Origin: Sphingomonadaceae bacterium
GTDB taxonomy: Bacteria; Pseudomonadota; Alphaproteobacteria; Sphingomonadales; Sphingomonadaceae
Direction: 5' to 3'
Assembly (NCBI GenBank): GCA_947446935.1
Contig: CANFIV010000011.1
Span: 1-11,894 of the forward strand
Length of the DNA stretch: 11,894 nt
This document shows, in pieces, positions 1 through 11,894 of the stretch. The position numbers and the translations under genes are program-made. Every line of letters starts with the position of its first letter. Positions within the stretch are counted from its first letter, which is position 1. The notes under the pieces were generated by a model. It was not told where the DNA came from. It worked only from the letters and a program-made list of their open reading frames with translations, and made no database searches.

Positions 1-53
1 GCAAGGTTGCGGAATACGAGGGTCATGTCGCCCAGTTGGTGCGCGAGAAGTGA
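1..53 (+). CDS. C-terminal end of an unidentified protein (partial)
   Basis: An open frame enters from the left edge and gives KVAEYEGHVAQLVREK before a TGA at 51-53. That stop overlaps the GTG start of the next gene (GTGA at 50-53), so it is very probably the preceding gene of the same operon. Only 16 residues are visible, too few for a family call. From general knowledge, DUF4266/DUF3570/ApbE clusters often have a TlpA/thioredoxin-like thiol oxidoreductase just upstream. This tail would be compatible with a thioredoxin-fold final helix, but that is inference from context only. Confidence 0.55.
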   Translation, partial: KVAEYEGHVAQLVREK

Positions 54-277
54 GCGCGCGCCCCCTGCATACCACCGTGCTTCTGGCTGCGCTCATTGCG
101 CTCTCGGGCTGCGCGCATATCGGTGCGCAGCCTTGGCAGCGTGACGTGCTTGCCCGCAAGTCTATGCAGCTTGCGCGCGAGCCGGCGATCATGGCTTTCG
201 ATGAACACACCTATTTCAGCAAGGAGGCGGCCTCTGGCGGGCGCAGCTTCGACGGCGGGGGTTGCGGGTGCAACTGA
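50..277 (+). CDS. DUF4266 small lipoprotein with Cys-rich C-terminal tail
   Basis: A 75-residue protein starting with GTG. The N-terminus is a lipoprotein signal: basic R4, hydrophobic stretch 9-18, lipobox L-S-G-C with C21 as the acylated residue. The mature chain is only about 55 residues. It contains PWQRDVLARKSMQL, then a H-T-Y-F-S-K-E-A-A-S-G-G segment and the extreme C-terminal tail GGGCGCN (C72, C74). This layout is characteristic of the DUF4266 family, whose function is unknown. Its start overlaps the upstream stop, and its last codons overlap the start region of the DUF3570 gene, so the genes are probably translationally coupled. The two tail cysteines could bind a metal, form a disulfide or be modified; nothing in the sequence decides this. 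The family call is confident; the role is not known. Confidence 0.85.
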   Translation: MSARPLHTTVLLAALIALSGCAHIGAQPWQRDVLARKSMQLAREPAIMAFDEHTYFSKEAASGGRSFDGGGCGCN

Positions 278-1638
278 AGAGCCGGGGCGGCATCGCTGCG
301 GCGCTGGGATTGTTTGCGGCCAGCCTGCTGGGCGCATCGCCGGCGCAAGCTGACGAGCGGGGCGATGCCCCATCCGGGGCAGCGCCGCCCGCAAATGCCT
401 ATGATCAGACCGCGAGCGAAGTCGGGACAATGGTCGCTGATTCGGCGCTGCTGGTCTACCAGGAGGATAACGACCGGGTGCGGGCAATCGAGGCCGAAAC
501 CGGGCTCACCTGGAATGCGGCGAGCGGTATCGTGGTCGCCGGCAAGTTCACGTATGATTCGCTGACCGGAGCCACTCCCAACGGTGCGATCCGCTCGCGA
601 TACGATCAAACCTTCGTGCCGCCGCGCAAGACCCGCTTCATCGGCGGGGGTCTCGGGCCGATCGATACCCACACCGGTTCATCCGGGCGCTACACCGTGG
701 CGCCCAACCAGCTCCCTGTCGACAAGGGCTTCAAGGATCACCGCGAGGCCTACGATCTCGGTGTGACGCTGCCCGTATCGGCATCGGTGAAGCTCAGTAT
801 GGGCGGCAATGCCTCGTCGGAAACCGACTACAGTTCCTATTCGGCCCGCGCCTCGCTCGCCAAGGATCTGAACGGCAAGAACACCACACTCTCCCTTGGC
901 CTCAATTACGAACGTGACAGCATCAGGCCGTTCACCGGTGTGCCGCGCGCGCTTTCGTATATGGGCGACATGATTGTCGGGCAGGCCAAGGTGAAGCAGG
1001 TCTACAGCCTCGTCGCCGGGGTGACCCAGGTGCTGACGCCGGGTTGGTTGGTGCAGATCAACTACAGCTTCGGCAAAACCCGCGGCTATCAGACCGATCC
1101 CTACAAGATCTTCACGCTCGTCGATACCGCGACCGGTGATCCGTTTTACTATATCTATGAAAAGCGGCCCGATCGGCGGACCCGAAACAGCATCTATGCC
1201 GCCACCAAGTTTGCGATCGGATCGGCGGTCACCGATGCGTCGGTGCGCTGGTATCACGATAGCTGGGGCATCGATTCAATGACCTATGCCGTGTCGGAAC
1301 ACATGCCGGTGGGCACCGCCGGCTATGTCGAGCCGGGCCTGCGCTTCTACCGGCAGACCGCGGCAAACTTCTTCTATCACTATCTCGGCATCGACGAGCC
1401 GACCCCGGCCTATGTCAGCAGCGATAGCCGCCTCGGCCGGTTTCATGCCTGGACATTCGGCTTGAAAGCCGGCGCACACATCACGCGGAGCCTCGAACTC
1501 TACGGCGCAGCCGAGCGCTACGTGCAGGAAGGCCAGCGCTTTGATCGCAAGGCGCCTGGTGTGCTGGCGCGCACAGACTTGTTCAGCGGTTCGCGCTCGG
1601 TCAGCCTGATCAGCGGCGTGCGCTTTACCTTCCGCTGA
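268..1638 (+). CDS. DUF3570 outer-membrane beta-barrel protein, candidate flavinylated protein
   Basis: I prefer GTG at 268 (456 residues): GGGGG at 257-261 lies six bases upstream, and the n-region Q-L-K-S-R-G-G fits a signal peptide. TTG at 262 would add two residues. A Sec signal peptide ends at S-P-A-Q-A near residue 28. The rest has alternating hydrophobic/polar strands rich in Tyr, Phe and Gly, ends in V-R-F-T-F-R, and reads as an outer-membrane barrel of the DUF3570 family (function unknown). Residues 97-107 are D-S-L-T-G-A-T-P-N-G-A. D-x-x-[ST]-G-A-T is the motif to which ApbE enzymes attach FMN through the last Thr (T103 here), and an ApbE gene follows with a TGATG overlap. Covalent FMN on this barrel is inference. 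The motif may instead be a structural turn of the family. Confidence 0.85.
   Translation: MQLKSRGGIAAALGLFAASLLGASPAQADERGDAPSGAAPPANAYDQTASEVGTMVADSALLVYQEDNDRVRAIEAETGLTWNAASGIVVAGKFTYDSLTGATPNGAIRSRYDQTFVPPRKTRFIGGGLGPIDTHTGSSGRYTVAPNQLPVDKGFKDHREAYDLGVTLPVSASVKLSMGGNASSETDYSSYSARASLAKDLNGKNTTLSLGLNYERDSIRPFTGVPRALSYMGDMIVGQAKVKQVYSLVAGVTQVLTPGWLVQINYSFGKTRGYQTDPYKIFTLVDTATGDPFYYIYEKRPDRRTRNSIYAATKFAIGSAVTDASVRWYHDSWGIDSMTYAVSEHMPVGTAGYVEPGLRFYRQTAANFFYHYLGIDEPTPAYVSSDSRLGRFHAWTFGLKAGAHITRSLELYGAAERYVQEGQRFDRKAPGVLARTDLFSGSRSVSLISGVRFTFR
556..588 (+). other. Putative ApbE flavinylation motif (DxxTGAT) in the DUF3570 protein
   Basis: Codons for D-S-L-T-G-A-T-P-N-G-A, residues 97-107 of the DUF3570 protein counted from the GTG at 268. 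NqrC/RnfG-type proteins carry D-x-x-[ST]-G-A-T and receive FMN on the final Thr; here that residue would be T103 (574-576). The match is exact for D, T, G, A and T. The motif sits about 70 residues after the predicted signal cleavage site. Modification is inferred from the motif and the adjacent transferase gene. Confidence 0.5.
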
Positions 1639-2528
1639 TGGCGAAGAAGCCCATATCCGGCCAAAAGTCCGGTGGCGTGCACAAGCATCGCTTCACCGCG
1701 ATGGGCTGCCCCTGCGAGGTGCAGGTGGAAACACGCGACAGCAAGCTGGCCACGCGGCTGGCGCAGATCGGCGAGGCCGAAGCACGCCGGATCGAGGCCA
1801 AATATACCCGTTACAAACCGACTGGCGTGGTCTGGATAGTCAACAACGCCGGTGGCAAGCCGGTGGAGGTGGACGAGGAGACAGCCGGTCTCATCGACTA
1901 TGCGGGGCAAGTCCATGCGTTGAGTGCGGGACGGTTCGATGTGACTTCGGGGGTGCTGCGCCGCGTCTGGACGTTCGACGGATCGGACCGCGTGCCCGAA
2001 CCCGCGCAAGTGGCTGAACTCATGCCGCTCATCGGCTGGGGCAAAGTGGGGTGGGAGCGACCCCTGCTCACTCTGCCGCCCGGCATGGAGATCGATCTGG
2101 GCGGCATCTGCAAGGAATATGCTGTCGACCGCGCCGCAATGGCAATCATGGCCGAAAGCGATTGTCCTGCGCTCGTCAACTTCGGCGGAGACCTCCGCAC
2201 GACCCGCGCCAAAACCAAGGCGCGCTGGGCGGTAGCGATCGAATCGATGGATCCGGCCAAGGCTTCGGGTGGCTTGCTGCAGATCGATCAGGGCGCGATC
2301 GCCACCAGCGGGGATGCCAAGCGGTTCCTGCTGCGCGCGGGCAAGCGCTACAGCCATATCCTAGATCCCCGCACCGGCTGGCCGGTTGAAAATCCGCCGC
2401 GCTCGGTCACGGTCGCGGCGCGCACTTGCGTGCAGGCTGGAACGCTTTCCACGCTCGCAATGTTGCTGGGGCCGGATGCCGAGGCATTCCTCAAGGCTGA
2501 AAACGCCGAGGCCTGGGTGCTGCGTTAA
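1638..2528 (+). CDS. apbE: FAD:protein FMN transferase (ApbE family), signal-less and divergent
   Basis: A 296-residue protein. ApbE enzymes move FMN from FAD onto a Thr/Ser of a target protein, using Mg2+. Family motifs run in order: A-M-G-C-P at 21-25 (usual A-M-G-T), G-R-F-D-V-T-S-G at 98-105, E-I-D-L-G-G-I-C-K-E-Y-A-V-D at 151-164, N-F-G-G-D at 181-185, A-T-S-G-D-A at 222-227, Y-S-H-I-L-D-P-R-T-G-W-P at 238-249, and T-C-V-Q-A-G-T-L-S-T at 263-272. Two oddities are visible. There is no signal peptide or lipobox, although most ApbE proteins are exported. The usual metal-binding Asp of A-D-A-L-x-T is Gly268. The start ATG shares its A with the DUF3570 stop (TGATG), so translation is probably coupled. 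The likely target is the DUF3570 product. Family call firm; activity less certain. Confidence 0.9.
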   Translation: MAKKPISGQKSGGVHKHRFTAMGCPCEVQVETRDSKLATRLAQIGEAEARRIEAKYTRYKPTGVVWIVNNAGGKPVEVDEETAGLIDYAGQVHALSAGRFDVTSGVLRRVWTFDGSDRVPEPAQVAELMPLIGWGKVGWERPLLTLPPGMEIDLGGICKEYAVDRAAMAIMAESDCPALVNFGGDLRTTRAKTKARWAVAIESMDPAKASGGLLQIDQGAIATSGDAKRFLLRAGKRYSHILDPRTGWPVENPPRSVTVAARTCVQAGTLSTLAMLLGPDAEAFLKAENAEAWVLR

Positions 2529-2690
2529 CGCATCCCTCGTCCGCCGGGTAACATCATGTCAAGGATCGGCGGGTTAGAAGCGCCCCAGCACAGCGTGCGC
2601 CCTTTTACCCGAATCTCTCGGGGCTGGCGCGCCAGGGGGTTTGGCTTGGCGCAGGAACAGGAACTGACGGGACAATCCCGGCAGGAACAG
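2529..2690 (+). other. Leader region between apbE and the PilZ gene
   Basis: This 162-base gap holds a perfect palindrome CTGGCGCGCCAG (2624-2635), an exact direct repeat GCAGGAACAG (2651-2660 and 2681-2690, the second abutting the PilZ ATG and serving as its ribosome site), and a short hairpin CGGGA-CAA-TCCCG (2668-2680) just before that site. An ATG at 2556 is in frame with the PilZ gene, so part of this could be coding, but the extra 45 residues are Arg-rich and lack PilZ features. No clear promoter could be picked. Confidence 0.35.
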
Positions 2691-3344
2691 ATGGGAGCGC
2701 CCCCGGGCTCGGAGCTTCGCTCTGCGCAGCGCTTTGCCCTGCTTATCCGCACCGCCAAGATCATCGCCGATGGCCGCGAGTTCCTTTGCATAATCCGAGA
2801 TCTTTCGGCCACCGGGCTCAAGGTTCGGCTGTTCTCGCCCCTGCCCCAATCGCGCGGGTTGAGCATCCAGCAGGTAAACGGCGATCGTTACCCGGTTGAG
2901 CTTGTCTGGCAGGCAGACGACTATGCCGGCTTGCGCTTCCACGAGGAGATCGACGTCGAGCGCATGCTCGATGAAGGGGGCGCGATACTTCCCCGCAGGC
3001 AAGTCCGGCTGCGTATTGCGCTCGACGCCGTCCTGCACTCTGGCGGAGAGGCGGTGCGCGTCGCGTTCCGGGACATTTCTCAGCAGGGTGCCTGCGTCGA
3101 AAGCGAGAAATGGCTCCTGATGAACGAGCTCGTGCGCCTCGAAACGGGAGTCACGCTGCCGCTCTATGCGAAGGTCCGCTGGCGCAGCCATCCGCGCTAT
3201 GGGTTGATCTTCGAACATACCTTCAAGCTTGATGAACTCGCGCGCATTTCCGCGCCCTTGCAGTTTGCCGAGGCGCTGCAGGAGCAGGTGCCTGTGCAGC
3301 GCAGCGCCAGTATTGGTGAAACGGCCGGGCCCCGCTCGATCTAG
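2691..3344 (+). CDS. Tandem PilZ domain protein (probable c-di-GMP receptor)
   Basis: 217 residues from ATG 2691, chosen because AGGAA lies just upstream and PilZ similarity begins here; ATG 2556 would give 262. Two PilZ-like domains follow each other. Domain 1, about residues 8-85, has R-S-A-Q-R (R10, R14), R-D-L-S-A-T-G (D37, S39, G42) and a W...AGLRF strand. Domain 2, about 100-178, has R-R-Q-V-R (R102, R106), R-D-I-S-Q-Q-G (D128, S130, G133) and V-R-W...YGLIF. RxxxR plus [DN]xSxxG is the c-di-GMP binding signature of PilZ, and both copies are complete. No membrane segment or catalytic domain is present, so it is a stand-alone cytoplasmic receptor/adaptor. Its target is not evident; the sugar-transfer genes downstream are a possibility. 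Its stop is followed by a 14-base palindrome. Confidence 0.85.
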   Translation: MGAPPGSELRSAQRFALLIRTAKIIADGREFLCIIRDLSATGLKVRLFSPLPQSRGLSIQQVNGDRYPVELVWQADDYAGLRFHEEIDVERMLDEGGAILPRRQVRLRIALDAVLHSGGEAVRVAFRDISQQGACVESEKWLLMNELVRLETGVTLPLYAKVRWRSHPRYGLIFEHTFKLDELARISAPLQFAEALQEQVPVQRSASIGETAGPRSI

Positions 3345-3350
3345 GGTGTG

Positions 3351-3364
3351 GCAAGGGCCCTTGC
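3351..3364. repeat. 14-bp perfect palindrome after the PilZ gene
   Basis: GCAAGGGCCCTTGC is its own reverse complement and begins six bases after the PilZ stop. As RNA it would need to open a loop and has no T-run, so it is a poor terminator. It is more like an operator-type dyad for the oxidoreductase gene downstream, or chance. The remaining bases to 3465 contain a locally AT-richer stretch (3409-3440), a plausible place for a promoter, but no clear -35/-10 pair. Confidence 0.4.
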
Positions 3365-3465
3365 GGGTTCCTCGCGAGAAGCGTCGTTTCGCTTTCCCCG
3401 CCTCCCGCGTTAACTATCCCTTAGCCATTTTCGTTCACTTCCGATGCAAGCAGGACCGCTTCAAC

Positions 3466-3470
3466 GGGAG
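3466..3470 (+). promoter_or_regulatory. Ribosome binding site setting the start of the FAD oxidoreductase
   Basis: GGGAG sits six bases before ATG 3477. An in-frame ATG at 3444 lacks such a site and would add eleven residues with no family similarity, so 3477 is preferred. Confidence 0.6.
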
Positions 3471-3476
3471 CAAGCG

Positions 3477-5099
3477 ATGGGTAACGGTTTCGTGGGCGTG
3501 CATGGGGACAGCAACGAGTTTGATGTCGACGTTGCGATCATCGGCGCGGGGCCTGCGGGCCTGACCGCTGGTTACCTGCTTTCCAAGAAAGGTCTCAAGG
3601 TCGCGATCATCGAGAAGGACCCGCGCTATGTCGGCGGCATCAGCCGCACTGTGGAGCACGAGGGTTACCGCTTCGATATCGGCGGCCACCGCTTTTTCTC
3701 GAAATCGCAGCAAGTTGTCGATCTCTGGAACGAGATCCTGCCCGACGATTTCATCCAGCGTCCGCGCATGAGCCGCATTTATTACGAGGGCAAATTCTAC
3801 TCGTATCCGCTGCGCGCCTTCGAGGCGCTCGGCAACCTCGGTATTCTGCGCTCGACCTCGTGCATGATCAGCTATGTCTGGTCGCGCGCCTTCCCGATTC
3901 CGGACGTGAAGAGCTTCGAGGACTGGACCAGCAACCAATTCGGCAAGAAGCTCTATTCGATCTTCTTCAAGACCTACACCGAGAAGGTCTGGGGCATGCC
4001 CTGCAACGAAATGAGCGCCGACTGGGCGGCGCAGCGCATCAAGGGCCTCTCCCTCGGCGCTGCGGTGCTCGACGGGCTCAAGCGCAGCCTCGGGCTCAAC
4101 AAGCGCCCGAACGACGGCATGCAGACCAAGACCTTGCTCGAAAGCTTCCGCTATCCGCGCCAGGGCCCGGGCATGATGTGGGAAGCCGCGCGCGACAAGA
4201 TCGTGGCTGCCGGCGGCCAAGTGCTGATGGGTCACGCGATGAAGCAGCTGGCCAGCGATGGTCAGGGCGGCTGGCGCCTTTCGGCGACCCGCACCGATGC
4301 GGACGGCAACCCGGCGGGCGAGACCGTGATCCGCGCCGCCCACGCGATCAGCTCCGCGCCGATGCGCGAACTCGCCGCGCGCCTTCATCCGCTGCCGCAA
4401 TCAACGCTGGAGGCAAGCCGCCTCAAGTACCGCGACTTCCTCACCGTGGCGCTCAAGATCCAGAGCGAGGACTTGTTTCCCGACAACTGGATCTACATCC
4501 ACGACAGCAAAGTGCGCGTGGGCCGCGTGCAGAACTTCCGTTCGTGGTCGCCTGAAATGGTGCCGGACGAGAGCGTGGCCTGCGTTGGCCTCGAATACTT
4601 CTGCTTCGAAGGTGATGACCTCTGGGCTTCGAGCGACGAGGATCTGATCAAGCTCGCCACGAAGGAAATGGACATCCTCGGCCTCGTCGATCCGGCGAAG
4701 GTGATCGGCGGCGCAGTCGTGCGGCAGGAAAAGGCTTATCCGGTCTATGACGACGAATACGCTGCCAATGTCGCCGCGATGCGCCATGAGCTCGAGGCCA
4801 GCCACCCGAACCTGCACCTTGTCGGCCGCAACGGCATGCACCGCTACAACAACCAGGACCACGCGATGATGACCGCGATGCTCACGGTCGAGAACATCAT
4901 CGCCGGTGCCCGTGTCTACGATATCTGGTGCGTCAACGAGGATGCCGAGTACCACGAGGCCGGCGACGAGGGCGCGCTCAGCACGCTGCCCGCACGTCCG
5001 GTCAGCGAGGACCAGGCTGCCGCGCTGGCCTCGGTGCGTGACGTGCCGACCCGGGTCAAGGCTGACGACGACAAGCCGCAAGGCCGTGCCGCCGCCTGA
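3477..5099 (+). CDS. FAD-dependent oxidoreductase (amine oxidase / UDP-galactopyranose mutase-like)
   Basis: 540 residues. The N-terminus holds a Rossmann dinucleotide site I-I-G-A-G-P-A-G-L (G23, G25, G28) with acidic E46 closing strand 2. This is followed by G-G-I-S-R-T at 53-58 and D-I-G-G-H-R-F-F at 67-74, the arrangement of UDP-galactopyranose mutase, protoporphyrinogen oxidase and related flavoproteins. Near the C-terminus, [15 protein letters not shown] at 450-464 resembles the second FAD-binding segment of this group. It probably acts in the cytosol on a sugar nucleotide or polyprenyl-linked sugar, given the GtrA and GT-C-like genes behind it; the substrate cannot be read from sequence. 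A 54-base gap separates it from gtrA on the same strand. The C-terminal 40 residues are Ala/Asp-rich and look unstructured. Family level is sure; the exact reaction is not. Confidence 0.85.
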
Positions 5100-5153
5100 T
5101 TGCCCGGCTTTCCTTCCGTCGTTCCCGCAACGTGATGTCTCGCTGAACTGGAT

Positions 5154-5573
5154 ATGGCCGTGACAGTCCTGGATATCTCCCACCTGAACCGCATCCGGCA
5201 GATCGTGCTGGTGCGCTACATTCTGGCGAGTGTCGGCGCGCTGGCGGTGGACATGGGCACATTCCTTGCCCTGCTATCCGCCGGTATCCTGCCCGTGGCC
5301 GCCTCGGCGGTGGGGTATGCGATTGGCATCGCGGTCCACTGGATACTCTCGAGCCGCAAGGTCTTTGCCGATCAGGTGGCGAGCGGCGGGATCGAGCGCA
5401 CGCGGCAGAAGGCCATGTTCGTCGTTTCCGCGCTGGTTGGTCTTGGCGTTACCACCATGATTGTCGGCGGGGCCAGTGCGGCTGGTATGGATCCGCGACT
5501 GGCGAAGCTTGCCGCCATTGTCGTCAGCTTCTCGGTGACCTGGCTCCTGCGCAAACGGGTGGTATTCCGCTGA
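5154..5573 (+). CDS. GtrA family membrane protein
   Basis: 139 residues with four predicted membrane helices (about 20-41, 46-66, 88-108, 117-133). GtrA features are visible: R-Y-I-L-A-S-V-G-A-L-A-V-D near the first helix, W-I-L-S-S-R-K-V-F after the second, and T-W-L-L-R-K-R-V-V-F-R at the end. GtrA proteins are thought to flip polyprenyl-phosphate-linked sugars across the inner membrane or to assist such transferases. The neighbours fit: a flavin oxidoreductase before it and a GT-C-like transferase after it, whose ATG overlaps this stop (TGATG at 5571-5575). A GT2 polyprenyl-phosphate glycosyltransferase (GtrB-like), the usual partner, is not in the window. No strong ribosome site precedes ATG 5154; GTG 5160 is a possible alternative. 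Confidence 0.85.
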   Translation: MAVTVLDISHLNRIRQIVLVRYILASVGALAVDMGTFLALLSAGILPVAASAVGYAIGIAVHWILSSRKVFADQVASGGIERTRQKAMFVVSALVGLGVTTMIVGGASAAGMDPRLAKLAAIVVSFSVTWLLRKRVVFR

Positions 5574-7381
5574 TGGCCACACTTTATGCCTCCGGGCTTG
5601 CGGGCACGGCCAAGACCGATTCAATCACAGATCCGTCAAAGGCGGCGTGGCGCCGCGTACTCATTGCCTGGGCGATTCTGATTATCACGATGATTGCGGT
5701 CAAATTTCCGCTTATTGCCGAGATGCGGTTCAGCGACCCAGATGATGCCCTGCGATTGGTCGAGGTGCGTGATCTGCTCGCCGGGCAATCGTGGTTCGAT
5801 GTCCACCAGTATCGCGTGGCCGCGCCGGCCGGTGTTGCGATGCACTGGTCGCGGCTTGTCGATATTCCGATTGCCGGCATGATCCTGATGCTTCGCCCTC
5901 TCATCGGCACGCATTGGGCAGAGCTTGCGACCGTTCTGGCCATACCCGCACTGACATTGCTTTGCGCTCAGGTTCTCGTCGCGCGGATCGCTACCCGCTT
6001 TTTCAACGATGATGTCGCCGGTCTGGCTTGCGTCACCTTTGGGCTCGCGGTGCCAGTCCTGTGGCAATTCACTCCGATGCGCATCGATCATCACGCATGG
6101 CAGATCGTTTTGGCGCTCGCGGCGCTTAATGGCCTGCTTGCACGAGATGCATGGCGCGGCGGCGGTGTGATCGGTCTGGCCTTGGCGGCATCAATGGCGA
6201 TTTCGATTGAAGGCCTGCCGCTTGCTGTCTTGTTCCTCGGTGTGTGTGCGCTGCGCGGCTTGCGCGATCCCGCGACGCGGTTCGTTTCGCTGCTGGCTTC
6301 CTCTGGCGGTCTGGCTGTTGGGTCGATCATGTTCTTCCTGGGCACGCGCGGAACGTACGATCTTGTGACTCACTGTGATGCGATTTCGCCGGTACACCTC
6401 GCTTTGTTTGCCTGGACCGCAATCGGCGCGGCGGCGCTGCATTTTGCCTCGCCGCGCGCTTTCACCAGCAAGTTGATCGGGCTTGCCGCGATCGGCGCGG
6501 GCGCTGCAGCCATCTTGTTCGGTGCGGCACCGCAATGCCGAGGCGGCACATTCGTCATGCTGGACCCGCTCGTAATGCGCTATTGGTATCCTTCGGTCGC
6601 CGAGGGCATGCCCTTCTGGCACACCAGTCCGCCATTGGCTGCGTCCATCGTGATCGGGCCTCTGGTGGGGATCTACGGCGTGTTTCGGCTCTGGCGCGAA
6701 ACGCCCGATCCCGCTGTGCGGGCCGCCTGGCTTGATTACATGCTGGTGCTGATAGGGGCCTGGTTGATTGGTGACATGATCTCGCGCGCTTCGGCCACCG
6801 CGTTGGTCTTCGCCGCGGTACCGACGGCTGCCCTGATCATGCGCTGGGTCTACAGCCTGCGTACGGTACCGGTTGTGGGTCGCATAGGTGGGTACATTGG
6901 GGTCATCATGCTGCTCGTGCCGCCGATCCCGGTTGTACTGGCAACGGGCCTTGTCAGCCCGCCGCCGGCCAACGCCGAAAAGGGCGCGATGAGCCAGTCG
7001 CATTGCAAGTATAACCTTGCCGGCCGTGCGCTTGATCGGTTGCCAACGACGGACATCTTCGCTCCGCTCGACATCGGGCCTGATATCATAGTCAAATCGC
7101 ACCAGCGCGTTGTCGCCACGGGCCATCATCGCGGATCAGCGGGTATGCACGATGTGATTGCAGCGTTCATGGCTCCGCCTGAAGAAGCGCACAGCATCGT
7201 GCATTCGCGGCGTGCTACACTCATCGTGATTTGCCCCGATATCTACGAGCCCTCGATCTATGCGCGGCGTGCGCCGAACGGGTTGATGGCGCAGTTGCTT
7301 GCCAACCGTCCCCCTGATTGGCTGGAGCGGGCCGATCTTTCGCCGGGCTCGGGTTTTCAGTTCTGGCGGGTGGTGCGTTGA
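5573..7381 (+). CDS. Polytopic membrane protein, probable GT-C fold glycosyltransferase
   Basis: 602 residues. A first membrane helix (about 29-44) is followed by F-S-D-P-D-D-A-L-R-L (D55, D57, D58), placed like the acidic catalytic motif in the first external loop of GT-C transferases (STT3/PglB, ArnT, PMT). M-R-I-D-H-H-A-W-Q (D172-H173-H174) resembles the D-H-H element of STT3-type proteins. About ten to twelve further hydrophobic helices extend to about 460. A periplasmic tail of about 140 residues follows, with D-I-F-A-P-L-D-I-G-P and V-A-T-G-H-H-R. I infer transfer of a polyprenyl-phosphate-linked sugar at the outer face of the inner membrane. Acceptor and donor are unknown. Translation is probably coupled to gtrA. 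By eye its codons use more A/T in third position than the oxidoreductase gene. It could be a non-catalytic relative. Confidence 0.7.
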   Translation: MATLYASGLAGTAKTDSITDPSKAAWRRVLIAWAILIITMIAVKFPLIAEMRFSDPDDALRLVEVRDLLAGQSWFDVHQYRVAAPAGVAMHWSRLVDIPIAGMILMLRPLIGTHWAELATVLAIPALTLLCAQVLVARIATRFFNDDVAGLACVTFGLAVPVLWQFTPMRIDHHAWQIVLALAALNGLLARDAWRGGGVIGLALAASMAISIEGLPLAVLFLGVCALRGLRDPATRFVSLLASSGGLAVGSIMFFLGTRGTYDLVTHCDAISPVHLALFAWTAIGAAALHFASPRAFTSKLIGLAAIGAGAAAILFGAAPQCRGGTFVMLDPLVMRYWYPSVAEGMPFWHTSPPLAASIVIGPLVGIYGVFRLWRETPDPAVRAAWLDYMLVLIGAWLIGDMISRASATALVFAAVPTAALIMRWVYSLRTVPVVGRIGGYIGVIMLLVPPIPVVLATGLVSPPPANAEKGAMSQSHCKYNLAGRALDRLPTTDIFAPLDIGPDIIVKSHQRVVATGHHRGSAGMHDVIAAFMAPPEEAHSIVHSRRATLIVICPDIYEPSIYARRAPNGLMAQLLANRPPDWLERADLSPGSGFQFWRVVR

Positions 7382-7411
7382 GCGCAGTGCGCCGTGCGAA
7401 AGCGTTTTGGC

Positions 7412-8197
7412 TTAGTCCGCGTCTCGCAAGGTGACCCAGATCGGCGCGTGGTCACTGGCCTTTTCGCGCCCGCGATAGGTCTTGTCGACGCCCGCGCCGG
7501 TCAGCCGGTCGGCAAGTTCGGGCGAGAGCAATGCGTGGTCTATACGAAAGCCGTGGTCGCGCGGCCAAGCGCCTGCCTGATAATCCCAGAAGGTCCAGAT
7601 CCCGCCGCGCGGATGGTGCAGATCGATGGCATCGGTCCAGCCGTCATTGAGCAGGCGGCGATAGGCGTCGCGCGATGCGGGCTGCATCAGTGCATCGCTT
7701 GCCATCGCGCGCGTATCCCACACGTCCTTGTCCTCGGGAATCACGTTGAAATCCCCAATCACTAGAGCCGGGCACTCCTCCGCAGCAATCTGCGCCATGC
7801 GCGTACGCAACCGGTCCATCCAGCGCAGCTTGTAGTCAAACTTGGGGCCGGGCTGCGGGTTGCCGTTGGGCAGGTAGATGCACACGACGCGCAGGCCTTT
7901 GACGTCTGCCTCAAGGTAGCGCGAATGCTCGTCTTCGGGCTCCCCGGCAAGCCCACGCTGGACTTCGACCGGCAGGGCCCCGTCGGCCAGGATGGCCACA
8001 CCGTTGAAGCCCTTCTGGCCGTGCCAGATCGCATGGTAGCCGATTTTCTCGAACTCGGCGGCGGGAAAGTCTGCGTCCTGGGTCTTGATCTCCTGCAGGC
8101 AGGCGACCGAAGGCCGGGTTTCCTCAAGCCATTCGAGCAGGCGCGGCAGCCGCGCCTTGATCCCGTTGATATTGAACGAAGCGACCTTGATCGTCAC
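7412..8197 (-). CDS. xth: Exodeoxyribonuclease III (AP endonuclease)
   Basis: 261 residues with GTG start at 8195-8197. It belongs to the ExoIII/AP endonuclease family, which cuts abasic sites and removes 3' blocking groups in base-excision repair. Conserved active-site positions are present: N9 in F-N-I-N-G, E36 in L-Q-E-I-K-T-Q-D, Y108 in C-I-Y-L-P-N-G, D149 and N151 in G-D-F-N-V, W-D-Y plus R-I-D-H-A-L (D220), and the closing S-D-H-A-P (D249, H250). Length matches the bacterial ExoIII family (about 260-270). Its GTG overlaps the erpA stop (GTGA), so it is probably translated from the erpA message. It converges on the GT-C-like gene with a 30-base gap and no obvious terminator between them. 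Confidence 0.95.
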   Translation of the reverse strand: MTIKVASFNINGIKARLPRLLEWLEETRPSVACLQEIKTQDADFPAAEFEKIGYHAIWHGQKGFNGVAILADGALPVEVQRGLAGEPEDEHSRYLEADVKGLRVVCIYLPNGNPQPGPKFDYKLRWMDRLRTRMAQIAAEECPALVIGDFNVIPEDKDVWDTRAMASDALMQPASRDAYRRLLNDGWTDAIDLHHPRGGIWTFWDYQAGAWPRDHGFRIDHALLSPELADRLTGAGVDKTYRGREKASDHAPIWVTLRDAD

Positions 8198-8550
8198 ACC
8201 GAAAAGCTCGACCCGCAGCCGCAGCCCGATGCCGCCTGCGGGTTGGTGACGCGGAATGCCGCGCCGCCGAGCGATTCGATGTATTCGACCGTTGCTCCCG
8301 CGATCAGTTCTAGGCTCATCGCATCGACGAGCAGGCGCACGCCATCCGTTTCCGAGACGAGATCGTCCGGCTCAGGTGCATCGCCCATCTCGAACTTGTA
8401 CTGAAAGCCCGAACAGCCGCCGCCTTCAACCGCGAGCCGCAACACAGCAGCGCGGTTCTGCTTCGCGGCGATGGCAGCAACGCGCGCCGCTGCGCTGGGT
8501 GCAAGGGTCACGCCGGGCGTTGTCGCCGCGTCTTGGGTCAATGTTGTCAT
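8194..8550 (-). CDS. erpA: Iron-sulfur cluster insertion protein ErpA (A-type carrier)
   Basis: 118 residues. A-type carriers accept Fe-S clusters from the assembly scaffold and deliver them to target proteins. The three cluster ligands are present: C46 in G-G-G-C-S-G-F-Q-Y, and C110 and C112 in S-G-C-G-C-G-S-S-F-S-V. N-P-Q-A precedes the CGC motif, as in ErpA proteins. IscA or SufA are close alternatives; the S-S-F-S-V end favours ErpA. The first 12 residues are a variable extension. GGGGG lies just before the ATG at 8550. The gene is 36 bases downstream of the CBS gene and overlaps exonuclease III by four bases, so the three may share a message. Confidence 0.9.
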   Translation of the reverse strand: MTTLTQDAATTPGVTLAPSAAARVAAIAAKQNRAAVLRLAVEGGGCSGFQYKFEMGDAPEPDDLVSETDGVRLLVDAMSLELIAGATVEYIESLGGAAFRVTNPQAASGCGCGSSFSV

Positions 8551-8586
8551 GCCCCCAAGATAGGACGCACTGCGCTCGCGCTCAAG

Positions 8587-9033
8587 TCATGCTGACTGGA
8601 TATACTCGCGCAGCGCTCCGGCCTCGGCTTCGATGCGGTCGATCCGGTATTTAACCAGGTCCCCGATCGAGATGAACCCTACCATCTTGCCCCCGTCGAT
8701 CACCGGCAGATGGCGGATGCGCCGCCGGGTCATGAGCCCCAGAGCTTCCAGCGCGGTGCTGGACGGCGAAACCGAAATGACCGGCGCGGTCATCACATCG
8801 CGCACTTTCATGTCTAGTGCTGCGGCTCCATGGGTCTTGAGCGCATAAAGCACATCCCGTTCCGAAAAGATGCCGGCGACCGTGTGCCCGGCATCCGGGC
8901 TGCTGGCATCTGTCACGGGCAAGGCACCGATGCGGCGCGTTGCCAGGGTCTCCACGGCGTCGGCCACGCGGTCGTCGGCCTGGCAGTGCCACACCTCGCC
9001 CGAACGGCCTGCGATCAGCATTGCGATCGTCAT
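8587..9033 (-). CDS. Two-CBS-domain protein
   Basis: 148 residues starting at ATG 9033, chosen because AGGAGG lies five bases upstream on this strand; the frame stays open to 9147 but without a comparable site. It has two CBS domains, about 5-70 and 75-135. Typical elements are R-I-G-A-L-P-V and G-I-F-S-E-R-D-V in the first, and V-R-D-V-M-T-A-P, R-R-I-R-H-L-P-V-I and G-F-I-S-I-G-D-L-V in the second. CBS pairs bind adenine nucleotides (AMP, ATP, NAD or S-adenosylmethionine) and act as energy or redox sensors. No fused effector domain is present, so the partner is unknown. It is the first gene of the minus-strand set ahead of erpA and xth. The final helix (I-D-R-I-E-A-E-A) is a short coiled-coil-like end often seen in stand-alone CBS proteins. 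Confidence 0.9.
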   Translation of the reverse strand: MTIAMLIAGRSGEVWHCQADDRVADAVETLATRRIGALPVTDASSPDAGHTVAGIFSERDVLYALKTHGAAALDMKVRDVMTAPVISVSPSSTALEALGLMTRRRIRHLPVIDGGKMVGFISIGDLVKYRIDRIEAEAGALREYIQSA

Positions 9034-9038
9034 GGCAT

Positions 9039-9044
9039 CCTCCT
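9039..9044 (-). promoter_or_regulatory. Strong ribosome binding site of the CBS gene
   Basis: The minus strand reads AGGAGG followed by five bases and ATG (9031-9033). This is the best Shine-Dalgarno sequence in the window and fixes the start of the CBS protein. Confidence 0.8.
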
Positions 9045-9106
9045 GCTTTTTAAGCCGGACGGTCGTTTGGACGCCGCCCGTAAGGGCGATCATGCCACCA
9101 AAGGGC

Positions 9107-9112
9107 AAGGAG
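9107..9112 (+). promoter_or_regulatory. Ribosome binding site supporting a TTG start
   Basis: AAGGAG is followed by nine bases and TTG at 9122, in frame with the small membrane protein. Later in-frame ATGs at 9146 and 9158 have no such site. The divergent gap 9034-9121 also holds a small hairpin, CGCCC-GTAA-GGGCG at 9075-9088. Confidence 0.5.
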
Positions 9113-9121
9113 TGAAAGCGA

Positions 9122-9475
9122 TTGCCACGCTGGGGTGCCTGGCGCATGGAACGGGCTATGGTTCGCCCCTCGCCCGTACGCCCCTCCCCGCTTGATGACC
9201 CGCATTTCGCCGAGTTTGCCTGGGCCCGTTACTTTCGGCTGATGCGCTGGATGATGCTGTTCACGGCCTGCGTCGTGGCGGTTTGCCTGGCCTATCTCCA
9301 TGCGGTGGTCGGTGAAGCGCCGATCCATCTCTATATCGCCGCAACGCTGGGCATCGGTTTTACGATGATGCTGATGGCTGCGCTGATGGGGCTCGTATTC
9401 CTCTCAAGCGGCACGGGCCATGATGAGGCGATCGACAACACGCTCGATGCGCATATCGACGCCTGGAGAGATTGA
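9122..9475 (+). CDS. Small two-helix membrane protein, function unknown
   Basis: 117 residues if it starts at TTG 9122, supported by AAGGAG nine bases upstream; ATG 9146 or 9158 would give 109 or 105 residues. The N-terminal 43 residues are soluble, with S-P-L-D-D-P-H-F-A-E-F-A-W-A-R-Y-F-R-L-M-R-W. Two hydrophobic helices follow, about 44-62 and 69-95, joined by a short loop, and then an acidic tail (H-D-E-A-I-D-N-T-L-D-A-H-I-D-A-W-R-D). I recognise no named family. It is divergent from the CBS gene across 88 bases and converges with the ferredoxin gene. It looks like a sphingomonad-type hypothetical inner-membrane protein. Nothing visible suggests an enzyme activity. Confidence 0.7.
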   Translation: MPRWGAWRMERAMVRPSPVRPSPLDDPHFAEFAWARYFRLMRWMMLFTACVVAVCLAYLHAVVGEAPIHLYIAATLGIGFTMMLMAALMGLVFLSSGTGHDEAIDNTLDAHIDAWRD

Positions 9476-9499
9476 AATCAGGTCCGGCTCGAATCGGGT

Positions 9500-9527
9500 C
9501 CGGCTCTACTCAGGCGGATTGAGCCGG
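9500..9527. repeat. Inverted repeat at the convergent gene junction
   Basis: CCGGCTC (9500-9506) and GAGCCGG (9521-9527) can pair around a 14-base loop, just after the small membrane protein gene and across the end of the ferredoxin gene. GGTCCGGCTC also occurs twice as a direct repeat (9481-9490 and 9497-9506). No T-run follows, so a terminator role for either gene is only possible. Confidence 0.3.
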
Positions 9528-9880
9528 TATTCCTCGACTGGTACGCCGCCGATCACATGCTCCTGGATGATCCGCTCGAGCACCGGCGGGGTACAGGAAT
9601 GGTACCAGACGCCGTCCGGATAGACGAGCGCGACCGGCCCGACCGCGCAGACACGCAGGCAACCGACCTTGTTGCGCAAAACGCCCTGTGGCCCGCCCAG
9701 CTTGAGTTCACCCAGCCGCCGCTTGAGGAAGGCCCAGGCCTCTTCACCCACTTCGCGAGGGGCGCACTTGTCCTTGTCTGGCCCCGCGCAGAGCAGGATA
9801 TGGCGCTGCGGCGCGAAGCCGCCCAATCCTTCGACGGCCCGGCGTGCGAGGGTGAGCGGGTCGTCTACCGAATCAGCCAT
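9506..9880 (-). CDS. Thioredoxin-like [2Fe-2S] ferredoxin
   Basis: 124 residues. The core is [13 protein letters not shown] (C31, C39) and [11 protein letters not shown] (C74, C78), followed by [11 protein letters not shown]. Two Cys in an N-terminal loop plus C-x3-C is the ligand pattern of thioredoxin-fold [2Fe-2S] ferredoxins, as in NuoE-like and stand-alone ferredoxins of this type. The first 20 residues are a variable helix. It is probably a cytosolic electron carrier; its partner is not evident. Its ATG at 9878-9880 lies inside the end of the thioesterase gene (16-base overlap), so it is likely co-translated. ErpA, a possible source of its cluster, is about 1 kb away but in a separate transcription unit. 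Confidence 0.85.
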
Positions 9881-10293
9881 ACCTTGAGCCTTTCGCGCAA
9901 AGCCGGGTCGATCGGCATGGGGCGCTCGCCATCGGTGAACACGATGGTGACATGTGCGGTGGCGACCGGCCGGCCCTCCTGCAGCAGCAATTGCCTGAGG
10001 CTCCAGCTGCTGCGCCCGCCGGGCAGAACGCCGACGCGGCACTCGAGACCTTGGGGATAATAGGCCTGTGCCAGATAATCGATGGTCACGTTCGCGACCA
10101 TGAAGCGCGCGCTGGTCGTGTTGCGAGGGAAGCCGACAGCGGTGATGAAGCGCAGCCGCGCATCCTCGAACACCGCAGCCATGGCGACATTGTTGATGTG
10201 CCCGTTTGGATCGAGATCGGCAAAGCGCGTGGTCACCGCATTCGCGAAAGGATAGCGCGCCGGATCGAGGAGCGCGGGATCGGGTCTCGCCAT
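9865..10293 (-). CDS. Hotdog-fold acyl-CoA thioesterase (4HBT family)
   Basis: 142 residues. The N-terminal [14 protein letters not shown] (23-36) is the diagnostic motif of 4-hydroxybenzoyl-CoA-thioesterase-like hotdog proteins, with the active-site Asp in D-L-D and the helix entered at G-H-I-N-N. E43 in F-E-D-A-R lies on the central hotdog helix. Strands such as V-A-N-V-T-I-D-Y-L and [11 protein letters not shown] complete the fold. Such enzymes hydrolyse acyl-CoA or acyl-ACP to free acid; chain preference cannot be read here. Length is normal for the family. It starts at ATG 10291-10293 with a weak ribosome site, 33 bases after the PopZ-like gene on the same strand, and overlaps the ferredoxin gene by 16 bases. 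Confidence 0.85.
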
Positions 10294-10326
10294 ATCAGAA
10301 ACCGGCCATATTAGCGGTTTTGCCGC

Positions 10327-10854
10327 TCAGCCCTTCTTGCCGACAATGCGCGCGATCTCGGCCGCGACCAGCTTTTCAACCATCGGCGGCAGGTTGCGAT
10401 CCAACCATTCGGCGAGTTGCGGGCGGAGCAGTTCGCGCACGAGGCTCTCTAGCGAGGTCTCGCCCGAGCGAACGATCTGCGGGGCAGCCCCCGGCGCAGA
10501 CATCATAGCCAGTGCAGCCAACGATTCGCGCATCGAGGCGGTTGTCGTTTCCTGCAGGAGCGGCGCTTCGTCTTCGTCGTCCATGTCGGTGCTCCCTGCG
10601 CTGTTACGCCCGCGCTCTTCGCTCAGGATTTGCGCGGCCACCTCACTCAGATCAAGCACATCGGCGGGGAAGGAGGCGGGCTTGCCTTCGCTGCGGAGAG
10701 CGGGCTGCGCGGCAATGCGCGTCGCGACAACAGCCTCGTCCGCGCTCTCGCGCCGAATGCGCTCGCGCGCGGCTTCGGCCCGGTTATCGCGCGCGATCAC
10801 CTTCTTGATCGATTCGAGGATTACCTCGACCGAAGGTTCTGAAGTCTGCCGCAT
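10327..10854 (-). CDS. popZ: PopZ-like cell-pole organising protein (DUF2497)
   Basis: 175 residues from ATG 10854; GGGGA precedes the start by about seven bases, and the frame further upstream lacks family similarity. PopZ forms a self-assembling matrix at the cell pole of alphaproteobacteria that anchors the ParB-bound chromosome origin and signalling proteins. The N-terminal helix S-E-P-S-V-E-V-I-L-E-S-I-K-K-V-I (5-20) matches the client-binding region. The middle is low complexity with an acidic run D-M-D-D-E-D-E (90-96). The C-terminal oligomerisation part reads S-L-E-S-L-V-R-E-L-L-R-P-Q-L-A-E-W-L-D-R-N-L-P (134-156) and ends in E-I-A-R-I-V-G-K-K-G. Length is close to Caulobacter PopZ. 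It lies 55 bases downstream of the TolC-family gene, the usual neighbour. The family call is firm; polar function here is inferred. Confidence 0.85.
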   Translation of the reverse strand: MRQTSEPSVEVILESIKKVIARDNRAEAARERIRRESADEAVVATRIAAQPALRSEGKPASFPADVLDLSEVAAQILSEERGRNSAGSTDMDDEDEAPLLQETTTASMRESLAALAMMSAPGAAPQIVRSGETSLESLVRELLRPQLAEWLDRNLPPMVEKLVAAEIARIVGKKG

Positions 10855-10909
10855 GCGAATCCCCAAAGCAGGTGAGCGAATCAGTTCGGTATGCACGACG
10901 CATGTACCA

Positions 10910-11894
10910 CTATGGCACAGTCTGCGCAGGCGTTGTTGCAGTTTGCGCAGGCGTGTCAACCGTGCGGGTGGCCTTCGCGGTCGGTGCGGGGTCGAAAGAC
11001 CAGTCCCATACCCGGCTGCGCACGCGCTGATAGTTGGCATCGGGGTCATAAAGCATGGCTGCGTCGAACCCGAGATCGGCTGCCTGGGCCTTGCCCATGG
11101 CCGCGAGCAGATTGAACGCTGCGACATAGGCATTGCGCCGCGCGGCGACCAATCCGACCTGAGCGCGCAGCAATTCCTGCTCCGCATCAAGGATGTTCAG
11201 AATGGTGCGGTTGCCTACGGTGTTTTCCGCGCGCACACCCTCAAGGCTGAGCGCGGCGGCATCCACTGCGGTCTGGTTCAGCGTGATAACGTCATTAGCC
11301 GCACGCCAAGAGGTATAGGCCGAGCGGACCGTGGCGATCACCTGACGTTCGGCGGAAATCTCCTGTTCCAGCGCGGCGCTGGCATTGGCCTGGGCCTGGC
11401 GCTGCTGCGCAGCGGGCAGCCCGCCCTGGAACAACGGAATGGTGGCGCGGACACCGGCTTGCGCCGTGGTCTGCTTTTGCGTGAACCCATTGCCGCCCGC
11501 GCTGCTGCCGAGCGAGCCGAGATAGTCCGAATAGTCCCCGCTGGTGAACAGCGAGAGCTTGGGTAGACGGCCCGCGCCGGCGACCTTCACGTCATAGCCT
11601 GTGGCCTTGCTGCGTTGACGCGCGGCCAGAAGATCGGGGTTGCTGTCGAGCGCGGCCTGCACAGCCTCTTCGGGAGAGGCTGGAAGCGCAGCAAGTGGAG
11701 GCGGTGGCTGGAGATCGGCCGGCACTTTGCCGACAACCTGCACATAGCGTTCGCGGCTCGCCACAAGCGCGGCTTCCGCATTGCGCAAGTCGGCCCGCGC
11801 CAGCGCGAGGCGCGAATTGGACTGCGCCACGTCGGTGCGGGTCACATCGCCGATCTCGAAACGGTCGCTGGTGGCCTTGAGGTTGACCTCGAGC
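10910..11894 (-). CDS. tolC: TolC-family outer-membrane efflux protein (partial, N-terminus off window)
   Basis: The frame is open to the right edge, giving about 327 residues of the C-terminal part. TolC proteins are trimeric outer-membrane channels for type I secretion and drug efflux. Visible family features are A-T-S-D-R-F-E-I-G-D-V-T-R-T-D-V-A-Q-S near the edge, long Ala/Gln/Glu-rich helices (such as Q-R-Q-A-Q-A-N-A-S-A-A-L), and a second repeat half with V-R-A-E-N-T-V-G-N-R-T-I-L-N-I-L-D-A-E-Q-E-L-L-R-A-Q. The conserved L-L-A-A-M-G-K end of the second helical hairpin follows. A tail rich in Thr, Pro, Ala and Gln ends the protein and contains a duplicated T-P-A-Q-T. The PopZ-like gene follows after 55 bases on the same strand. 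Confidence 0.9.
   Translation of the reverse strand, partial: LEVNLKATSDRFEIGDVTRTDVAQSNSRLALARADLRNAEAALVASRERYVQVVGKVPADLQPPPPLAALPASPEEAVQAALDSNPDLLAARQRSKATGYDVKVAGAGRLPKLSLFTSGDYSDYLGSLGSSAGGNGFTQKQTTAQAGVRATIPLFQGGLPAAQQRQAQANASAALEQEISAERQVIATVRSAYTSWRAANDVITLNQTAVDAAALSLEGVRAENTVGNRTILNILDAEQELLRAQVGLVAARRNAYVAAFNLLAAMGKAQAADLGFDAAMLYDPDANYQRVRSRVWDWSFDPAPTAKATRTVDTPAQTATTPAQTVP
10918..10954 (-). repeat. Short direct repeat in the 3' end of the TolC-family gene
   Basis: 16 bases at 10918-10933 recur at 10939-10954 with one mismatch and a 21-base period. They encode the two T-P-A-Q-T copies in the last 14 residues of the protein. A small in-frame tandem duplication in a tail that probably tolerates change is the simplest reading. 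Confidence 0.55.

Follow-up and report, generated by a model that had tools for sequence, protein, structure and literature searches.

Our comparisons of DUF3570 loci pointed to a likely route in which FMN would be attached to DUF3570, a predicted outer-membrane barrel protein, in the cytosol, and the barrel precursor would then be exported and inserted so that a loop predicted to be extracellular carries the flavin. We also lean, with rather less confidence, toward a broader proposal. In this proposal, a widespread and mostly DUF3570-dedicated subfamily of signal-less ApbEs, in which a carboxylate has moved, would load FMN before Sec export, and flavins would reach an extracellular loop. Flavinylation of DUF3570 was already known; the signal-less ApbE subfamily with its KE/AG residues and flavinylation before export looked new.

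The starting point was one entire contig of 11,894 bases, referred to here as the window, from a genome that was 53% complete. Judged by the named homologues, this genome falls close to Novosphingobium. The window carried the known thioredoxin-like/DUF4266/DUF3570/ApbE redox operon, whose features are listed in Table 1. The tail of the thioredoxin-like gene, KVAEYEGHVAQLVREK*, resembled the tails of thioredoxin-like family members at related loci L077, L078, and L079; this family was present at 88 of 120 loci, and one member matched Pfam AhpC-TSA/Redoxin. The DUF3570 and ApbE products matched their Pfam families at 1.8e-89 (301 bits against a cut-off of 25) and 2e-65 (221 bits against a cut-off of 25.6), respectively. 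With NCBIfam, DUF3570 and DUF4266 of the window had no match, and the ApbE had a match below the cut-off only. With duplicates counted, 129 of 130 DUF4266 ORFs had the CxC pair no more than 6 amino acids from the C-terminus. A preliminary description of this DNA had stated that apbE and the DUF3570 gene overlap by one base, and we found the same arrangement: the apbE ATG at 1638 started inside the TGA at 1636-1638.

Table 1. Features of the redox operon in the window
Feature	Position	Strand	Detail
Thioredoxin/ResA-like gene, C-terminal 16 codons and stop	3..53	+	heads operon; remainder off contig
DUF4266 small lipoprotein, lipobox-like LSGC, C-terminal C-G-C-N	50..277	+	PF14086, 4.3e-21
DUF4266 CxC Cys codons	263-265 and 269-271	+	
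DUF3570 predicted outer-membrane beta-barrel with signal peptide	268..1638, alternative start TTG 262	+	PF12094
Flavinylation motif 1, D99-S-L-T-G-A-T105	556..576	+	acceptor T105 codon 574-576
Candidate flavinylation motif 2, D135-T-H-T-G-S-S141	664..684	+	acceptor S141 codon 682-684
ApbE FAD:protein FMN transferase, signal peptide not recognisable	1638..2528	+	PF02424
K159-E160, diagnostic Glu of DUF3570-linked subfamily (controls K/Q-G)	2112..2117	+	
G268, place of catalytic-triad/metal-ligand Asp	2439..2441	+	

Clusters described by Meheust et al. in 2021 contained DUF4266 with a C-terminal CXC, DUF3570, ApbE, a thioredoxin-like protein, and DsbD (PMC8238504). Such a cluster was like the window in its families and its gene set and, apart from the variant TGSS of the window, in its [ST]GA[ST] sites, and DUF3570 was shown to be an ApbE substrate there. 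The neighbours in the window that matched this system were apbE, DUF4266 with the C-terminal CxC, and the thioredoxin-like gene. DsbD was not found among the window genes scanned with Pfam; it is carried by only some of the published clusters, and DsbD_TM matches were located elsewhere in the window's genome (G000; C53 and C62). The remainder of the window (2556-11893) encoded a PilZ protein, an NAD_binding_8/amino-oxidase-like flavoprotein, a GtrA protein, and a 602-amino-acid protein that had no Pfam match, as well as, on the minus strand, an Exo_endo_phos protein, Fe-S_biosyn, CBS, thioesterase, and DUF2497 proteins, and an OEP efflux protein. No tRNA was found in the window.

The preliminary description had reported a D-S-L-T-G-A-T motif in the barrel protein, and we confirmed it at residues 97-103 when counted from GTG 268 (99-105 from TTG 262). 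The strict motif, D..[ST]GA[ST], had a single occurrence across all six frames of the window; it is unlikely to arise by chance, as it appeared in 127 of 20,000 shuffles of the window DUF3570. A single acceptor site had been named, and a candidate second site, DTHTGSS, had been missed; we rejected the single-site reading in favour of two sites, one of them variant. Specifically, TGAT in motif 1 fit [ST]GA[ST], and TGSS in motif 2 was an A-to-S variant of it. At the place of motif 2, TGAS was found in 93 of 120 homologues and TGSS in 7, and two relaxed motifs appeared together in 1 of 20,000 shuffles of the window protein.

Two conserved [ST]GA[ST] motifs were reported by Meheust et al. in ApbE-associated DUF3570s, which is a difference from the TGSS of window motif 2 (PMC8238504). 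In the same study, UV-visible flavinylation of the Chlorobium luteolum DUF3570 by its cognate ApbE persisted unless both serines were replaced. The idea that DUF3570 is flavinylated was therefore right, since ApbE-dependent flavinylation of the C. luteolum protein is published, and the DUF3570-ApbE pairing, which had been offered as possibly undescribed, was already in print (PMC8238504). The D-x-x-[ST]-G-A-[ST] acceptor logic is common to DUF3570 and the FMN_bind domain (PF04205) of NqrC/RnfG (PMC12052999). NqrC/RnfG use an exported lipoprotein ApbE, whereas the window DUF3570 is not an FMN_bind protein and its ApbE belongs to another, signal-less clan. FMN_bind was absent from the window DUF3570, for which DUF3570 was the sole Pfam match at E 0.001, and no convincing solved relative of DUF3570 was found (best E 0.32).

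For the conservation analysis, we used 123 DUF3570 copies in 120 loci, after dropping duplicate locus L137. The copies came from the window, from phylum and order genome samples (29 of 398 and 10 of 396 genomes were DUF3570-positive, respectively, with the window's genome in both), and from 80 loci of a named-genome scan. In a separate alignment of the window protein with 120 listed of 291 homologues, the G, A, and final S/T of motif 1 were present in 120 of 121 sequences, and the sole miss was a gap in a 289-amino-acid fragment. We treated a DUF3570 as apbE-adjacent when an apbE was located within 2.6 kb, and 90 copies fell into this class. All 90 had the motif Gly and a Ser (61) or Thr (29) acceptor, as expected if the acceptor is kept beside apbE. 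Elsewhere in the motif, the third letter was A in 83 copies, S in 4, and G in 3, and the leading residue was D in 82, E in 7, and N in 1.

Among the 21 non-adjacent DUF3570s with flanking sequence available, the motif Gly was lost in 6, which read SSAS or SNAS, and 13 retained at least one [ST]GA[ST]. Another 12 copies were located at contig edges, and one of these (L057) was without the site-1 Gly. Gly loss was associated with the absence of an adjacent apbE by a naive Fisher test that ignores kinship (2e-5). On the tree, the loss amounted to one or two events, and 9 independent pairs differed in the trait in a mean of 0.7. The independent-pairs test was powerless, and the loss was without independent support. 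All six genomes with a Gly loss held an ApbE, and in five of the six one ApbE had a signal; in the remaining genome (G366), the only ApbE was of the control type and was scored as having no signal. Five of the six were also without the signal-less DUF3570-linked ApbE type, and in the sixth (G246), an ApbE of the linked type adjoined the second DUF3570, whose motif was intact. The suggestion that motif loss tracks the absence of a neighbouring apbE was borne out weakly: the difference of 6 of 21 against 0 of 90 was in the expected direction, but it came from one or two events in genomes that all contained an ApbE. We rejected the simple version, in which the motif follows the neighbouring gene, because 13 of the 21 still had [ST]GA[ST] and the events were so few.

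A gammaproteobacterial-type DUF4266-DUF3570 group without an adjacent apbE (L059, L060, L064, L066-L071, L112-L115, L134, and L135) was characterized by a long cluster with genes for a hydrazine-synthase-alpha-like/PD40 protein, SH3, an OMP, a thioredoxin-like protein, and TPR proteins. A control-type ApbE was located about 6-18 kb away in six of these loci, four of them with a signal, and the motif Gly was missing in six of nine. In an Opitutaceae locus (L177, 3838-8730), two linked-clan ApbEs flanked one DUF3570, and DUF4266 frames, one of them weak, were found on both sides. DUF3570 ORFs of 653-1163 amino acids were present at L051, L074, L168, L171, L180, L182, and L185; four of these seven loci were from records named Methylococcaceae or Methylomicrobium. 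We considered and rejected the idea that the long ORFs were cytochrome fusions, as CxxCH was found in 0 of 8 ORFs longer than 560 amino acids. Two-component genes near some clusters provided no functional lead.

The DUF3570-linked ApbEs carried no recognisable export signal. The scan used our own hydrophobicity rule (an uncharged hydrophobic stretch, with all in-frame ATG, GTG, and TTG starts considered) rather than SignalP. Linked ApbEs came from three sources (the window, the control-sample genomes, and the 80 best of at least 553 scan loci), and the controls were 49 non-adjacent ApbEs from 37 genomes of one phylum. The start-codon-aware scan found a signal-like h-region in 0 of 97 linked frames and 41 of 51 non-adjacent frames; when 5 duplicates and 2 partials were removed from the linked set and 2 duplicates from the controls, the counts were 0 of 90 and 41 of 49. 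When start codons were ignored, 6 of 90 linked ApbEs and 41 of 49 controls were positive, and so were 108 of 2,000 random internal 40-mers. A similar scan, extended by 30 or 45 residues past the domain start, was positive for 129 of 130 DUF4266 frames and for 110 of 135 DUF3570 frames; a looser threshold raised the latter to 125 of 135. Duplicates were counted in both cases.

The N-terminus passed straight into the ApbE domain in 31 operon ApbE frames. In the window ApbE, our scan found no N-terminal (lipo)protein signal of the kind in the exported Salmonella and V. cholerae ApbEs. An in-frame stop was located at 1542, and there was no ATG, GTG, or TTG from there to 1638, which excludes any N-terminal extension that begins at a standard start codon. 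One KE-type frame (L231) touched the end of its locus, and its leader may be cut. The rule also scored no signal in 8 of the 49 controls (L129-L133, L105, L106, and L126), and L126 was just below the threshold. L129-L133 formed a second group of ApbEs without a signal-like leader, with an N-terminal P-L-L-G-T and the usual Asp and Gly.

A tree built from 139 ApbEs placed the 90 linked ones together on one side of a branch with an SH-aLRT of 99. This clan covered eight phyla: Pseudomonadota (78), Verrucomicrobiota (6), and Chlorobiota, Acidobacteriota, Lentisphaerota, Zixiibacteriota, Campylobacterota, and Gemmatimonadota with one each. Two positions separated the clan from the controls. The residue after the conserved Lys was E in 90 of 90 linked and G in 49 of 49 control ApbEs, and the Asp position of the A-D-x-L-S-T motif was G in 90 of 90 linked ApbEs, against D in 47 and E in 2 (L105 and L106) of the 49 controls. 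G268 of the window ApbE aligned with the Asp at position 281 of chain 7esa, which we take to be Listeria FmnB; with an assumed numbering offset of 20, this Asp is presumably triad residue Asp301. The triad Asp (Asp285 in V. cholerae, Asp301 in FmnB) was thus missing in the window ApbE. In V. cholerae ApbE, the equivalent triad is Asp285-Ser241-His257 (PMC12052999), and in the T. pallidum enzyme, Asp284, Ala162, and Thr288 are the Mg partners (PMC5655446). The triad Ser and His were kept in 90 of 90 linked ApbEs (S224 and H240 in the window), and the Thr was kept in 88. By motif, the Glu of the linked ApbEs was located two residues past the position that matched Ala162. The Glu may assume the carboxylate role of the missing Asp; loss of the Asp could also mean that the linked ApbEs have altered or weak activity.

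We then compared ApbE content across genomes. Five genomes that were 99-100% complete (G532, G747, G665, G102, and G231) each had an intact DUF3570 motif, and the single ApbE match in each was the linked one. Of the known substrate families, FMN_bind and DUF2271 were searched for, and both were absent from all five. If DUF3570 is flavinylated in these genomes, the signal-less ApbE must do it, because it is the only ApbE there. In 20 genomes, no apbE was found beside a DUF3570; in 10 the genes were truly apart, and in 10 the DUF3570 was at a contig end. A linked-type ApbE was located elsewhere in 15 of the 20, all 15 signal-less, with one further case represented by a fragment, and 5 of the 15 KE-type ApbEs adjoined a DUF3570 frame. 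Other ApbEs judged in these genomes had a signal in 10 of 11 cases. The linked type was missing in four, namely the genomes of L168, L215, L163 (fragments only), and L205 (no ApbE found). This classification leaves out 3 matches without a locus and 4 fragments.

In the 397 other phylum-sample genomes, 21 matches to the window ApbE scored at least 170 bits, and the next scored 121. A high-scoring match was found in 16 of 28 DUF3570 genomes and 5 of 369 genomes without DUF3570. Five more DUF3570 genomes had divergent linked-type members from the adjacent set, which brought the number to 21 of 28, but these members were recognised only through DUF3570 adjacency, and the score-only figures are the fair comparison; Fisher values for all of these co-occurrences ignore relatedness. 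Of the 7 exceptions, five carried a decayed motif; the others were G015, whose L067 copy kept its motif, and G001, whose L057 copy lay at a contig end. In addition, five orphan signal-less KE/AG ApbEs (L260, L261, L263, L267, and L268) were found in G089, G145, G029, G100, and G191. Pfam DUF3570 and DUF4266 were absent from these five genomes, and FMN_bind proteins were present. Judging from these orphans, the linked type may have other, perhaps cytosolic, substrates.

DUF3570 might be flavinylated in the periplasm, either by an operon ApbE that is exported by an unrecognised route or by another, exported ApbE. Lipoproteins with a secretion signal make up the majority of characterised ApbEs (PMC12052999), many of the host genomes also hold signal-bearing ApbEs (41 of the 49 controls), and at L067 the DUF3570 motif was intact in a genome (G015) whose ApbEs all had a signal. 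This explanation has to account for a linked clan in which no member had a recognisable signal and for the five near-complete genomes without any other ApbE. It also sits poorly with the six DUF3570s that lost the motif Gly in spite of a signal-bearing ApbE in five of their six genomes. We consider periplasmic transfer unlikely, and cytosolic transfer is the reading that we prefer.

It is less likely still that cytosolic proteins other than DUF3570 are the main substrates of the signal-less ApbE and that DUF3570 is flavinylated only on overexpression. In favour of this reading, the five orphan genomes had the signal-less type but lacked Pfam DUF3570, and the cytosolic ApbE of Klebsiella acts on a soluble fumarate reductase (PMC12052999). 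However, 79 of 91 frames of the linked ApbE family were directly downstream of DUF3570, 16 of the 21 Pseudomonadota-sample genomes that gave a high-scoring match also had DUF3570, compared with 12 of the remaining 376, and the motif was conserved in all 90 linked DUF3570s. We regard as very improbable the idea that the KE/AG ApbE is a different or weak enzyme, not a competent FMN transferase, and that the motif persists for another reason. An Asp that is conserved in catalysis (PMC12052999) and is a Mg ligand (PMC5655446) is indeed Gly throughout the clan, but the triad Ser and His were kept, as was the Thr in all but two members, and a Glu was present nearby in every member. The cognate C. 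luteolum ApbE was also active (PMC8238504), and a Chlorobium relative (L141) was in the linked clan.

The predicted position of the flavin came from an analysis of DUF3570 topology. Hydrophobicity alternation in 124 aligned sequences, judged by eye, suggested about 16 strands, connected by short turns and by longer loops. Residues of about 102-158, which hold both sites, included one of the most gap-rich stretches. Of 122 family members, 108 had an aromatic C-terminal residue (F, W, or Y); the window DUF3570 ends in F-R. The signal, strand alternation, and aromatic C-terminus of the family fit a barrel, and the F-R end of the window protein itself departed from the last of these. With both ends of the barrel placed in the periplasm, the strand count would make the motif loop extracellular, and on this basis we think it reasonably probable that the loop lies at the cell surface.

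In the cytosolic model that we favour, DUF3570 would be made as the Sec precursor of an outer-membrane barrel. While this precursor is unfolded in the cytosol, its own cytosolic ApbE would recognise D-x-x-[ST]-G-A-[ST] (T105 and probably also S141), draw on cytosolic FAD, and transfer FMN to the Thr/Ser. The flavin-bearing precursor would then pass SecYEG, which would have to tolerate the adduct, and BAM would insert it with the motif loop, among the family's most length-variable stretches, ending on the outer face. Electrons may arrive from DsbD via the thioredoxin-like protein and the DUF4266 CxC; supply from DsbD was proposed by Meheust et al. (PMC8238504). Seven residues are sufficient as an ApbE acceptor motif (PMC12052999). 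The C. luteolum DUF3570 was mostly in the pellet of lysed cells and was purified under guanidine, yet it was flavinylated (PMC8238504), which fits modification of a non-native chain. In an early study, a cytosolic ApbE was unable to replace a periplasmic one (PMC12052999); that ApbE was probably of another type than the linked ApbE. The term "extracytosolic redox system" from the preliminary description suits the barrel, whereas the transfer itself probably takes place in the cytosol; the thioredoxin-like protein and, often, DsbD also belong to the system.

A known case of a signal-less ApbE is that of Klebsiella pneumoniae, which works in the cytosol (PMC12052999). Its substrate stays in the cytosol, whereas the window DUF3570 has an export signal and barrel features. 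The consulted text of Meheust et al., figures and supplements aside, contained no discussion of signal absence in the linked ApbE, of KE/AG, or of the place of attachment (PMC8238504). In the open literature, that article was the only one found that named DUF3570 or DUF4266. Searches of openly available texts, subscription papers aside, brought up no further report on ApbE together with DUF3570, on a cytosolic or signal-less ApbE, on export of a flavinylated protein, or on such a subfamily.

ApbE flavinylation of exported proteins has been described as taking place outside the cytosol and as needing FAD there. If a cytosolic ApbE does act on an exported barrel, the need for extracytosolic FAD would be removed, and a covalent redox cofactor would be installed before Sec export and not after it. 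Sec and BAM would then tolerate a protein-bound flavin, and DUF3570 would be a flavin carrier at the cell surface. For annotation, the KE/AG pair provides a simple sequence test for the linked ApbE type.
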